From the NCBI RefSeq assembly GCF_945836005.1, contig NZ_OX241534.1, forward strand, positions 434,001 through 498,000: a stretch of 64,000 bases of DNA. The letters run 5' to 3'. Below, piece after piece: positions 12,552-18,526 of the stretch. The position numbers were made by a program, and so were the translations under genes. Position 1 is the stretch's first letter. Each line of letters begins with the position of its first letter. The notes beneath the pieces are model-generated. The model did no database searches, had not been told where the DNA came from, and saw only the letters and a program-made list of their open reading frames with translations. This stretch comes from Candidatus Nitrosacidococcus sp. I8. Lineage in GTDB: Bacteria; Pseudomonadota; Gammaproteobacteria; Nitrosococcales; Nitrosococcaceae.

Positions 12552-14500
12552 TTATAACTTATTTTTAATTTTTTCTATTTCTTCGCCCACTTCAAGCCAA
12601 TCTCCCTCTAAGCCTGAGTGCTTTTCTTTTAGTTCTGCTTGTTTGATTAATAACCCTTTCAAATATTCTTTTTGCTGCGGATTTTGATATAGATTAGAAT
12701 CAGCAAGAATTTGATTAAGCCCTTTTTGTTCCTTTGCTAATTTTTCTAACGATAATTCCAGAGCTTTTAATTTTTTTTGTAGCGGTTGTAGGGTAAGCCG
12801 TTGATTAGCTTCTTCTCGTTTTTGATCTTTACGATTAATGGAACTAATACTGCCTTTGGTTTTATTTTCATTAGCACCTACAGATTTCTTATTTAACCAA
12901 TCTTGATAATCTTCTAAATCCCCATCAAATGGAGATACTTTATGATCGGCAACTAGCCATAACCCATCCGTAGTACTTCGCAGTAAATAGCGATTATGGG
13001 AAACAATCACCATGGCACCCTCAAACTCTTGTAGGGCATTAATCAACGCCTGCTGCATCTCTAAATCTAAGTGATTAGTCGGTTCATCCAGCAGTAACAA
13101 ATTGGGTCGTTGATATACAATAAGTGCTAAAGCTAGCCTTGCTTTTTCCCCACCAGAGAAGGATTGGATAGGTGCTAGTGCTTGATCTCCTTGAAAGTTA
13201 AAACCACCTAAGAAGTTTCGCCCCTCTTTTTCCGATAGGGTTGCATTTAGTTTTTGTAAATGTTGTAAGGGACTTTGATCAAAATAAAGCTGCTCTAGTT
13301 GATGTTGAGCAAAATAGCCGATTTTTAAATCTTGGGCTTGGGTTAAAGTGCCCGTTTTTGGTGCAAGCACTCCAGCGAGTAATTTAATTAAGGTAGATTT
13401 TCCTGCCCCATTAGGACCAAGCAGCCCAATCCGATCCCCAGGCATTAGGTTAAAATTAACTTGGGTTAAAATTTCTTGTTGCCCGTAGCCTATAATGACT
13501 TGCCCTAGATTTAACAAAGGGGTAGGGAGTTTTTCTGGTGAACGAAAAGTAAAGGTAAAAGGAGAATGGCTATGAATAGGGGCTAACTGTGCCATTCGCT
13601 CAAGTGCTTTAATTCGGCTTTGTGCTTGGCGTGCTTTAGTGGCTTTTGCTCGAAATCTATCTACAAAACTTTGGATATGAGCAATATTTTTTTGTTGCCT
13701 TTCATAATTTGCCTGCTGTTGCATCAGTTGAGCATTTCGCTGGGTTTCAAAGCTCTCGTAATTACCTTGATAGTAATTAATCGTATTTTGCTCTATATGG
13801 GCAATATGGGTGATGCTATGATCCAATAACTCTCGATCGTGGGAAATCAGCAATAAAGTGCCCGGATAATCCTTAAGCCAGCCTTCTAACCAAATCACTG
13901 CATCTAAATCTAAGTGGTTGGTAGGCTCATCCAAAAGCAATAAATCAGATCGGCACATCAAAGCTTGGGCTAAATTAAGCCGCATTCGCCAGCCTCCAGA
14001 AAAATAGGAAACAGGCTGGGATTCTTGAGCTACGCTAAAGCCTAGGCCGTGCATAAGTTTTGCTGCTCTTGCTGTAGCCGTATACCCTCCAATGGCGTCT
14101 ATTTGTCCGTGTAGTTCCCCTTGCAGGTTACCGTTATTATTTTTTTCTGCTTCTAATAGTTTTTTTTGCAAAGTTTGAAGCTCCTGATCCCCCTCTAATA
14201 CATATTCCAAAGCTGGGGTTACCACTTGAGGAGTTTCTTGAGCCACATGGGCTAATATCCACTGGGTAGGATAAGTAAGAGCACCTTGATCCGACTGAAG
14301 ATGGCCTAAAATTAAACTAAAAAGGCTAGATTTACCACAACCATTGGCACCAATGAGTCCTACTTTCTGACCGGGATAAATAGCTAAATTAACTTGGCAC
14401 CAATGAGTCCTACTTTCTGACCGGGATAAATAGCTAAATTAACTTGATCAAAGAGCAGTTTTTGTCCTTGTCGTAAAGAAATATCTTGAAGTTGCAACAT
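12552..14500 (-). pseudogene. yheS: ABC-F ATPase YheS, frameshifted by a 50-bp tandem duplication
   Basis: YheS-type ABC-F proteins are soluble twin-ATPase translation factors that act on the ribosome. The original start is the ATG ending at 14500 (MLQLQDISLRQGQKLLF). After GQKVGLIGA the frame runs into a second copy of the preceding 50 bases and stops at KLI-TAG, just before the first Walker A is completed (NGCGKSS). Beyond the repeat the frame is open to 12552 with signature SGGWRMRL, DEPTNHLDLD, second Walker A GPNGAGKST and SGGEKARL. Removing one repeat restores 633 codons. A product starting at the internal ATG ending at 14246 would lack the first Walker A. The disruption looks recent because the repeats are identical. 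Confidence 0.9.
14346..14445. repeat. perfect 50-bp tandem direct repeat inside yheS
   Basis: Bases 14346-14395 and 14396-14445 are identical (each begins GGCACCAATGAG and ends AAATTAACTT). The unit is 50 bases, not a multiple of three, so it shifts the yheS frame. Identity implies either a very recent duplication or an assembly error. Confidence 0.95.
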
Positions 14501-14607
14501 AAGAAAAATTAAATAGGGATAGATTTAAGCCCTAAGATACCACTATCTAAAGGAAAGAAATTACATTCTTGCCTTATGAAGGGAGGGAAGATCTAGATTA
14601 TAAATAG

Positions 14608-15174
14608 TTAGAAAAAAGTAGCTATTCGGGATTTATCTACGCTTAAAAACTGACATTTTTTATAACACTTTTGAGAAGGCACAAGGGCTACCCGGGTAGA
14701 TAGGGCATGTAATGCAATATTGTGTAACATCTCACTAATCGTAGTACAACAATCGGTTAGGATTGATATTTTATATTTTTCTGCAGATTTTGAAAGTGCA
14801 GTATGGGTGATACAATTTTGAGTCATCATACCGCAAATCAATAATTCATCTGCTCTAAATCCGTTTAATATATCTAAAAGCGTAGTTTTTTCAAAACTAT
14901 CTGCAAATTCTTTAATAACAATTTTAGCATTGGGTGCTACAGCAAGAATCTCAGAATGAATTTCAGCACCTTGTGTACCCTTATTAAAAAAAGGGGCAAT
15001 CCCTAAGCTACTGTTCGCAATGTGCTGAATCAAAATGACAGGAATATTTTCTTCCTTAGCCTGCTTGATGGTTTGTACGATATTTTTAAGCACTCCATCT
15101 GTATTCCAGAGGGGAAATAACCCATCTGGAAAGTAATCATTTTGTAAATCAATCACTAAAAGTATTTTATTCAT
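14608..15174 (-). CDS. isochorismatase-like cysteine hydrolase
   Basis: The 188-residue protein has the family triad: Asp in LLVIDLQNDYF (Asp9), a Lys in the KIVIKEF region (about 105-112), and the nucleophilic Cys in GMMTQNCITHT (about residue 140). Family members hydrolyse isochorismate, nicotinamide or other amides/ethers. The substrate is not readable here. The C-terminal tail (from LVPSQKCYKKC) is cysteine/lysine-rich. A diverged and dead second copy lies immediately upstream, with a copied stretch of the yheS 5' end between them. Expression is probably monocistronic. Confidence 0.85.
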   Translation of the reverse strand: MNKILLVIDLQNDYFPDGLFPLWNTDGVLKNIVQTIKQAKEENIPVILIQHIANSSLGIAPFFNKGTQGAEIHSEILAVAPNAKIVIKEFADSFEKTTLLDILNGFRADELLICGMMTQNCITHTALSKSAEKYKISILTDCCTTISEMLHNIALHALSTRVALVPSQKCYKKCQFLSVDKSRIATFF

Positions 15175-15197
15175 TTGAATCTCTCCTTCTGCCCAAG

Positions 15198-15272
15198 ATA
15201 AATAGCTAGATCAGCTCGATCAAAGAGCAGTTTTTGTCCTTGCCGTAAAGAAATATCTTGAAGTTGCAACAT
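15198..15272 (-). repeat. stray copy of the yheS 5' end
   Basis: Bases 15218-15272 match 14446-14500 (the first 55 bases of yheS including its ATG) with one mismatch, and weaker similarity continues to about 15198. The copy encodes only the first codons and is followed by unrelated sequence. With the two isochorismatase copies it shows that a block of yheS-start plus isochorismatase was tandemly duplicated. Confidence 0.9.
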
Positions 15273-15288
15273 ACTTAGGGGAAATTAT

Positions 15289-15800
15289 TTATATAACCTG
15301 TTGAGAAGATGTATGGGAAATTCGATGAAGCAGGTTATGTAATGTAGTGTCGTGCGAGGACGATATATCATCAACAATAGTACTGCAATCGGTTAGGATT
15401 GTAATTTTATATTTTTCTGCAGATTTATAAAATTCAATGTAATGCATACAGCTTTGCTTCATCGTACCGCAAAGTAATACTTCCTCTGTTTGAAACATAG
15501 TTAATAGCTCTAACAGCATAGTATTTTTCAAGCTATCTTCAAATGCTTCAAACTCTTCTAATACAACCCGTGCATCTGGTATTACAGTAATAAGCTCAGT
15601 ATTTTTCGTATCTTTTTTAAAAAAAGGTAATATCTCTAAGCAGCATGCTGAATTAAAATAACAGGAATACCCTTTTCTTTAGCTCGTATAATCGTTTGTA
15701 TAATGCTCTTAGCAATCTTATCGCTAGTCCCTTCAAAAGGGATTAACCCATTTGGAAAATAATGATTATGTAAATCAATCACTAATAATGCTTTATTCAT
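15289..15800 (-). pseudogene. second isochorismatase-like gene, disrupted
   Basis: The ATG ending at 15800 starts MNKALLVIDLHNHYFPNGL, parallel to the intact neighbour. The frame stops after ILIQHAA (around 15643), while homology resumes in another frame (EILPFFKKDTKN) and continues to the Cys motif GTMKQSCMHY and beyond, ending at 15289. A small indel with loss of about ten codons explains the shift. The triad Asp, Lys/Glu region and Cys are still recognisable, so the decay is moderately recent. A separate C-terminal fragment product from 15531 is not credible as a functional hydrolase. Confidence 0.85.
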
Positions 15801-15939
15801 TGGAGTACCCTCACTAATAAGCTTATAAAGTCTGTAACGTAAATTACGTTTATGCTCTTCTTATATAAGGATATTTATATATTTTATATTTATAGTATAA
15901 ATGATAAATAAATGCTCACTTAAACACGGAGTAGAACAA

Positions 15940-16338
15940 ATGACGGATAAAGTTGTTAAATCTAAAGCAGAATGGCAAACGCAGTTGACTCCAGAGCAGT
16001 ATCATATTGCCCGAGAAAAAGCTACTGAGCCCCCATTCACCGGTAAATACTATCATCATCACAAAACAGGAACCTATCACTGTATTTGTTGTGGTAATGC
16101 TTTATTTAGTTCAGAGCAAAAATATGAATCTGGCAGTGGATGGCCTAGTTTTTGGGATCCTATTCATACTACGGCTTTAACTGAGCATACAGATCATAGT
16201 CATGGAATGAAGCGAGTAGAAGTAGTCTGTGCCCGTTGTGATGCACATCTAGGTCATATGTTTAACGATGGTCCTGATCCGACCGGACTAAGATATTGTA
16301 TTAATTCTGCTTCCCTAGATTTTAAAACCGACTCTTAA
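15940..16338 (+). CDS. msrB: peptide methionine-(R)-S-oxide reductase MsrB
   Basis: This 132-residue repair enzyme reduces methionine-R-sulfoxide in proteins using thioredoxin. The two zinc-binding pairs are visible (CICCGNALF and [10 protein letters not shown]), with substrate motif SGSGWPSFW and catalytic Cys in RYCINSASL. The frame is open from 15901, but I choose the ATG at 15940 because GGAG lies nine bases before it and family members start [12 protein letters not shown]. It is one base from the next gene (apbE, GTG directly after the TAA), so the two are coupled. Confidence 0.95.
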
Positions 16339-17349
16339 GTGAATCCTATTCTTATCCCAGCTATCGTTATTTTTCTAGGGGGATTACTCACCAGCTGTAC
16401 TCAAGATTCTCAGCACCACTTGATTCAGTTTGGCGGATCCACTATGGGTACGGGCTACACCATAAAAGTAGTAGATCTTCCCTCAAACCTTAATCCTGAG
16501 AATTTAGTCAATGAAATTACCCAACAATTAACAGCGGTTAATCATTTATTATCCACCTACCAAGCCGATTCAGAACTCTCTCAATTTAATCAGAACTCAA
16601 GCACGGATTGGATCCCTGTATCTTCTCCCTTAGTGACTGTGATTAAAAAAGCCCAAGAAATTAGCAAACTTACTCAAGGGGCATTTGATATTACGGTAGG
16701 TGCTTTAGTGAATCTTTGGGGATTTGGTCCCGATATTCACTCACCTGCTATTCCAACGTTCGATCAAATTCAAGCAGCAAAGCAAAAAGTAAACTTTGAA
16801 TTACTGGATATTAGGAATTCTCCCCCTGCGTTAAAAAAAGCACAGGCAGATATGTATCTTGATCTCTCTGGGATTGGCAAAGGCTATGGGGTAGATCAAA
16901 TTGCAGAATTACTAGAGTCTAAAAATATCCATAATTATCTGGTAGATATTGGGGGAGAAGAGCGAATTAAGGGGCACAATGGTAAAGGCAAGCCATGGAA
17001 AATTGCGATTCAATATCCTAGATCAGGAATCCCTAAAGCTGCTTACACCCTTGAGTGCACTTCAGGAGCCATTGCCACCTCTGGGGATTATCAAAATTAT
17101 TTTGATTATAAAGACAGTCGCTATGGGCATATTATTAACCCAGAAACCGGCTGGCCTACGCTTTATCAATCTGCCTCAGTCACGGTGTTGAGTACTACTG
17201 CTATGGAAGCCGATGCACTCGCTACCGGGCTTTATGTCTTAGGAATAGAAAAAGGGCTTGCGTTTGCAGAAATATATCCTACTGCTGTATTATTTTTACT
17301 CCAATCAGAACAAGGTCTAAAACAACAAGCCAGTAGTTATTTTCCGTAG
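16339..17349 (+). CDS. apbE: FAD:protein FMN transferase ApbE, lipoprotein
   Basis: This 336-residue ApbE covalently attaches FMN to Thr/Ser of target proteins such as NqrC/RnfG. A GTG start is followed by a hydrophobic signal and lipobox LLTSC (Cys20), so the enzyme is periplasmic and membrane-anchored. Motifs: GSTMGTGYTIK, TQGAFDITVG, LDLSGIGKGYGVD, VDIGGEER, and the metal/FAD-binding SGAIATSGDYQNYF and YGHIINPETGWP. It is coupled to msrB upstream. A second ApbE without a signal peptide lies at 55718, in the redox cluster. The two probably serve different targets. Confidence 0.93.
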   Translation: MNPILIPAIVIFLGGLLTSCTQDSQHHLIQFGGSTMGTGYTIKVVDLPSNLNPENLVNEITQQLTAVNHLLSTYQADSELSQFNQNSSTDWIPVSSPLVTVIKKAQEISKLTQGAFDITVGALVNLWGFGPDIHSPAIPTFDQIQAAKQKVNFELLDIRNSPPALKKAQADMYLDLSGIGKGYGVDQIAELLESKNIHNYLVDIGGEERIKGHNGKGKPWKIAIQYPRSGIPKAAYTLECTSGAIATSGDYQNYFDYKDSRYGHIINPETGWPTLYQSASVTVLSTTAMEADALATGLYVLGIEKGLAFAEIYPTAVLFLLQSEQGLKQQASSYFP

Positions 17350-17401: not shown

Positions 17402-18526
17402 ATGAGTGCAAGGCAGCCAATAAATAGACTCACTATTAAGGGGTTTAAATCCATTAAAACCCTTGAGCAATTTGAATTAAAAAATCTTAATGTACTTATT
17501 GGTGCCAATGGATCTGGGTAAAGTAATTTTGTTTCATATTTTCGAATGCTGGGAGAAATGGTTGAGGAACGGCTACAAGTATGGACAAGCAAGCAAGGAT
17601 CTGCAGATCGGATTTTAAGCTTTGGGATTAAAGAGACTAACAAACTTGAGTCATTTGTTGAGTTTGGGTTAAATGGCTATCGATTTGAGTTAGAACTAAC
17701 AGATGAAGGTAGCTTTTACTTTGCTAACGAACAGTTATTTTTTACTGGCTTTTATTATAATGAAATGTGGATTTCATTAGATTCTGGTCATAAAGAGGTA
17801 AAGCTAAAAGAAATAAATTTAAAACGAGAATTAAAGACTGATACTGAAAATAATATAGCCCATTATTGCTATAGTTCTATTTCAAGCTGGAAAGTATTTC
17901 ATTTTCACGATACCAGCAATACTGCTGGGGTAAGGCGTGATTGTGCCGTCCATGATAATGAATATCTACGCCCTGATGCGGCTAATCTTGCCGCTTATCT
18001 CTATTGGCTTTCTAAAGAAAAGCCTGAAACTTTAGATCAGATTCGTAAAATCATCCGTCTTGCTCTTCCTTTTTTTGATGATTTTATTTTCAAACCTGAA
18101 AAAAAAGAAACAGGAGAAGCATTTATTTGGCTACTTTGGAAATAAAAAGACAGTGATTACCCCTTTCATCCTAGCCAACTCTCCGATGGCTCTATTCGTT
18201 TTATTTGCTTAACTACGGCACTGCTCCAACCTGATCCTCCAGCGACTATCATTATTGATGAGCCTGAATTAGGCTTACATCCCTACGCTATTATACTATT
18301 GGGTGCTCTTTTAAAATCAGCTGCTACTCGAATGCAAGTCATTATTTCCACCCAATCAGTGCCTTTAGTCAATGAATGCTCTATTGATGATTTAATCATT
18401 GTGGAGCGAGAAGAGGGTGGCAGCGTATTTAGGCGACATAAAGAAGAGGATTTTAAAATTTGGCTTGAAGAATATTCTGTTGGGGAATTGTGGGAGAAGA
18501 ATATTCTTGGGGGAAAACCCTATTAA
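17402..18526 (+). pseudogene. AAA ATPase (OLD/RecF-like), two in-frame stops
   Basis: One continuous frame of 374 codons from ATG 17402 encodes an SMC-like AAA protein: TIKGFKSIK, NLNVLIGANGSG, then QLSDGSIRF (signature), TIIIDEPELGLHP (Walker B) and QVIISTQS. Codon 40 is TAA exactly where the Walker A lysine should be (GANGSG-stop-SNF). Codon 248 (18143-18145) is a second TAA after AFIWLLWK. There is no frameshift anywhere. The last codon overlaps the DUF4276 start (TAATG). AAA plus DUF4276 pairs look like the ATPase/nuclease-type partners of defence systems such as OLD and PARIS, but no named system is proven here. Confidence 0.85.

Follow-up and report, generated by a model that had tools for sequence, protein, structure and literature searches.

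Spontaneous duplications inside open reading frames have been described for pneumococcal capsule serotypes 3, 8, and 37 (Waite et al. 2001, 2003, as cited in the accessible part of PMC4243769), and changes in the copy number of tandem repeats are known from M. tuberculosis (accessible part of PMC12817950). Here we describe a 50-bp tandem duplication inside yheS of the acid-tolerant ammonia-oxidising bacterium Candidatus Nitrosacidococcus sp. I8, whose genome is a single contig of 1,848,551 bp with a match to ammonia monooxygenase (PF02461). The window, that is, the whole stretch of DNA that was analysed, has a length of 64,000 nucleotides, and all coordinates are those of the window unless another stretch is named. 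The duplication is probably an ordinary, recent loss-of-function allele of yheS that can revert in principle, and not an evolved switch.

The identity of the gene as a yheS-type ABC-F gene, proposed in the first-pass annotation, is supported. Its long second frame matches PF00005 (ABC_tran) in two stretches as well as PF12848 (ABC_tran_Xtn), the ABC-F linker, and thus has the two-domain layout of an ABC-F protein. The best NCBIfam model by far is PRK10636.1, which we take to be the YheS model. In this match lies the likeness to the E. coli ABC-F ATPase YheS; the difference is that the I8 gene is broken and scores 845.6 bits, below the curated cut-off of 917. No second intact yheS was found in the genome. 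The sole other long ABC-F frame found there is intact, with 608 codons, and of the Uup/EttA type, being above the cut-off for the general ABC-F model only. The plasmid records searched for the yheS locus gave no match.

TRF identifies one array in the entire window, with a period of 50, 2.06 copies, 100% matches, and no indels, and a direct repeat scan returned the same period-50 array with the same limits (Table 1). The perfect duplication first reported at 14346-14445 is a valid register of this array, which exceeds two full units by three bases, TTG, that form a microhomology at its edges. Identity of this kind has a chance expectation of ~10^-23 at the composition of the window. The unit is indeed not divisible by three (50 mod 3 = 2), and the copy number of the array sets the frame of yheS.

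No intact reading frame for YheS is left at the locus: the first frame stops after 38 codons, and the two frames are offset by the duplication. The stop had originally been placed after 35 codons, which is the correct number of native codons, but three missense codons (K-L-I) follow them before the TAG. The second frame opens just past TAA 14441-14439 and runs to the stop ending at 12552, so that Walker A and the remainder of YheS are out of register with the first frame. Its Walker A motif, GANGCGKSS, starts at the array edge, in agreement with the original placing of the break just before Walker A. The further proposal that loss of one 50-bp unit would restore yheS also stands by arithmetic, both frames then returning to one register.

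Table 1. Coordinates in the window of the yheS reading frames, the array, and the adjoining features
Feature	Position	Strand	Basis
First frame of yheS, ATG 14500-14498 to TAG 14386-14384, 38 codons	14384..14500	-	Reading frames
Second yheS frame, open for 628 codons, both ABC domains, first-domain Walker A included	12552..14438	-	Frames and domain matches
Longest second-frame ORF with a usual start (GTG 14246-14244), without first-domain Walker A	12552..14246	-	ORF list
Array of the tandem duplication, 2.06 perfect copies of a 50-bp unit	14344..14446	-	TRF and direct scan
Isochorismatase-family hydrolase gene, between yheS and msrB	14608..15174	-	Domain match
Older duplicated yheS head, 33 codons	15171..15272	-	Sequence comparison
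Decayed second isochorismatase-like copy, several stops	15289..15801	-	Sequence comparison

A search of 39 genomes, I8 itself included, at a match threshold of E ≤ 1e-100 gave a yheS match in 38 of them (37 of the 38 others), with no internal stop in any match. The matches in the other genomes are near full length in 34 of 37 cases and partial in three (query 63-619, 10-514, and 117-619), and the 1.1-Mb genome G009 gave no yheS match at this threshold. The alignment took in those 29 of the 37 matching genomes for which loci were available, leaving out eight, and not a single aligned relative has a gap or insertion at I8's own residues 12-71, the site of the duplication; the relatives' protein runs from its start to Walker A without an extra segment. 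The relatives compared include no other Nitrosacidococcus, 'Ca. N. tergens' RJ19 not being among them, and a scan of further genome contigs yielded six distant loci with 25-54% identity, none named as Nitrosacidococcus.

A closer examination of conservation gives an indication of the age of the event. I8 YheS (residues 12-624) keeps 227 of the 238 positions that are invariant in the 29 relatives, and the 11 lost ones include a change of D to N beside the second H-loop histidine (SHNR for SHDR). When the close relative L010 is excluded, the positions invariant in the remaining 28 relatives are kept at 238 of 250 by L010, in which the gene is intact, and at 236 of 250 by I8. Decay of yheS as an explanation was therefore rejected: I8 and L010 have drifted about equally, and nothing points to a long period of decay following inactivation. 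With no decay visible elsewhere in the frame, the duplication is, if real, a recent one. In its identity to L010, yheS (68%) is similar to the neighbours hsp20 (70%) and msrB (61%).

We propose that yheS gained its second 50-bp unit through recent illegitimate tandem duplication in the sequenced I8 lineage, possibly by replication slippage or template switching at the 3 bp of edge microhomology. With translation ending at the early stop, the full ABC-F ATPase would not be made and its function would presumably be lost. A perfect repeat in direct tandem is expected to lose one of its units spontaneously, which would restore the frame and makes the allele unstable in principle. Such revertibility is a general property of duplications of this kind and not a sign of an evolved switch.

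Similar duplications occur elsewhere. Perfect, non-simple tandem arrays with a period of at least 15 (simple-repeat units excluded) were surveyed in 864 kb of I8, comprising the window and 40 further stretches or 47% of the genome, and in 400 kb each of the relatives G001 and G004. The survey gave 13 arrays in I8, one in G001, and one locus (four overlapping rows) in G004; the excess in I8 over the two relatives could come partly from assembly, and the sampling is small. Two neighbouring rows in L115 are among the 13, as is one apparent CRISPR array in L052 (~16200-17100), where regular repeats recognized by eye include one duplicated repeat-spacer unit. Another I8 stretch, L117, holds at 30-645 a 186-bp unit in 3.3 perfect copies, in frame within an ORF.

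Frames of other genes are interrupted as well. A 29-bp perfect duplication in I8 (L054 14484-14541, equivalent to C1 844484-844541) splits a frame into 68 and 196 open codons, the second part ending in a PEP-CTERM-like motif that, at 20.1 bits, narrowly misses the cut-off of 20.7. A 20-bp perfect duplication (L055 3665-3704) leaves 51 and 144 open codons of an FkbM methyltransferase-like gene in I8, which seems to be broken elsewhere too. In G001, a long frame with TPR repeats and phosphodiesterase-like matches is interrupted by a 37-bp perfect duplication (L074 11180-11254), with 53 and 789 open codons on the two sides. A general mutational process fits these observations, as frame-breaking duplications of varied length hit unrelated genes in the lineage.

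The yheS locus itself seems to have undergone an earlier, larger tandem duplication (14404-15804) that took in the yheS start and the hydrolase gene, since a copy of the yheS head and a decayed copy of the hydrolase lie between yheS and msrB. Its edge in yheS, at ~14404, falls within the 50-bp array. The resemblance between the two copies of the yheS head looks closer than that between the two hydrolase copies. The TGA of the 33-codon head copy overlaps the ATG of the isochorismatase-like gene (ATGA), and this copy may serve as a coupled leader ORF of that gene. Of five close relatives, three show the complete order hsp20 - yheS - msrB (L010, L011, and L014), with no hsp20 match in L012 and no msrB match in L013 within flanks of 1.5 kb, and an isochorismatase-like match is absent from the five close-relative stretches and from L085. 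A promoter and terminator scan around the locus gave fewer sites than in shuffles and nothing usable. Elsewhere in the window, an ATPase-like frame at 17546-18526 (DEPELGLHPY motif, by eye) has an in-frame TAG at 18143-18145 and adjoins a DUF4276 gene.

Unlikely, though far from negligible, is an error of assembly or consensus, in which case the chromosome has one unit and yheS is intact. According to the accessible part of PMC9574496, the genome of “Candidatus Nitrosacidococcus urinae” I8 comes from a NECAT assembly of an enrichment metagenome sequenced by Nanopore and Illumina (BioProject PRJEB52462). Such an origin would allow for this kind of error, and the explanation agrees with a gene that is conserved and intact apart from the duplication and with the higher number of perfect tandem arrays per base in the I8 sample than in the two relatives sampled. 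However, a perfect 50-bp duplication would be atypical of Nanopore error, and an array of 103 bp should be within reach of paired short reads. Several of the 13 I8 arrays are multi-copy, in frame or intergenic, as expected of natural repeats, and G001, which was separately assembled, also has a frame-interrupting duplication.

An ordinary duplication allele remains our preferred reading. It can be widened to a lineage of acid-tolerant ammonia oxidisers in which perfect short tandem duplications arise with unusual ease and reversibly silence genes, a translation factor included, and to enrichments that carry mixed one-unit and two-unit alleles; this wider claim we hold to be very doubtful.

We consider it highly improbable that the organism uses on/off phase variation of yheS, for example in tuning translation under acid stress. 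The array does have the form of a phase-variable element, as its tandem repeat is perfect, its unit length is no multiple of three, and its copy number sets the frame; in pneumococcal capsule genes, phase variation is known to arise from intragenic duplications that revert, according to the accessible part of PMC4243769. Yet it has two copies only, and the repeat is present in none of the 29 aligned relatives, whereas its retention at the locus in relatives would be a mark of an evolved switch. The same kind of event is also found at unrelated genes with different units. On these grounds we do not follow the first-pass annotation in its suggestion of a reversible switch.

The products that the broken allele could still give were also considered. 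The internal ATG ending at 14246, from which a half-active product had been envisaged, is out of frame and, by direct reading, meets a TAA after nine codons. The first ATG, GTG, or TTG in the large frame is the GTG at 14246-14244, which has no obvious Shine-Dalgarno sequence and lies downstream of Walker A in the reading direction, and a product begun there would be without the first Walker A. From general knowledge of ABC ATPases, an ABC-F protein that lacks one of its Walker A motifs is expected to be non-functional, and this point weighs more than the Shine-Dalgarno sequence. The Shine-Dalgarno argument is weak alone, because the normal ATG at 14500 likewise has no obvious one. That yheS still functions through re-initiation or -1 frameshifting is hardly credible: a -1 shift in the overlap of the two frames (about 14438-14386) would by arithmetic yield a protein carrying 17 additional residues ahead of Walker A, but the first ORF has no XXXYYYZ heptamer in any frame, so that programmed frameshifting was rejected, and TTG 14171 and ATG 13985, which look better than the GTG in their upstream sequence, lie further into the gene.

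If the duplication is real, I8 is without a working YheS and has one other ABC-F gene among those found, and both annotation and physiology should treat yheS as broken. The array would also provide a simple marker for the rate at which short tandem duplications are gained and reverted in slow-growing nitrifiers.

The closest parallels share the form of the event and differ in what accompanies it. As in the pneumococcal capsule genes, a short duplication inside an ORF, revertible in principle, would turn the gene off; there, phase variation has been observed (PMC4243769, accessible part), whereas in I8 yheS reversion is a prediction. In ssp1 of fission yeast, tandem duplications that are mediated by microhomology resemble the yheS array in their short microhomology flanks, their premature stop, and their reversibility, which for yheS is expected in principle, but they belong to a eukaryote and are linked to drug resistance (review PMC13207564, accessible part). 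The kind of event is already known from the pneumococcal capsule, fission yeast, and M. tuberculosis, and as a system the yheS duplication is ordinary.
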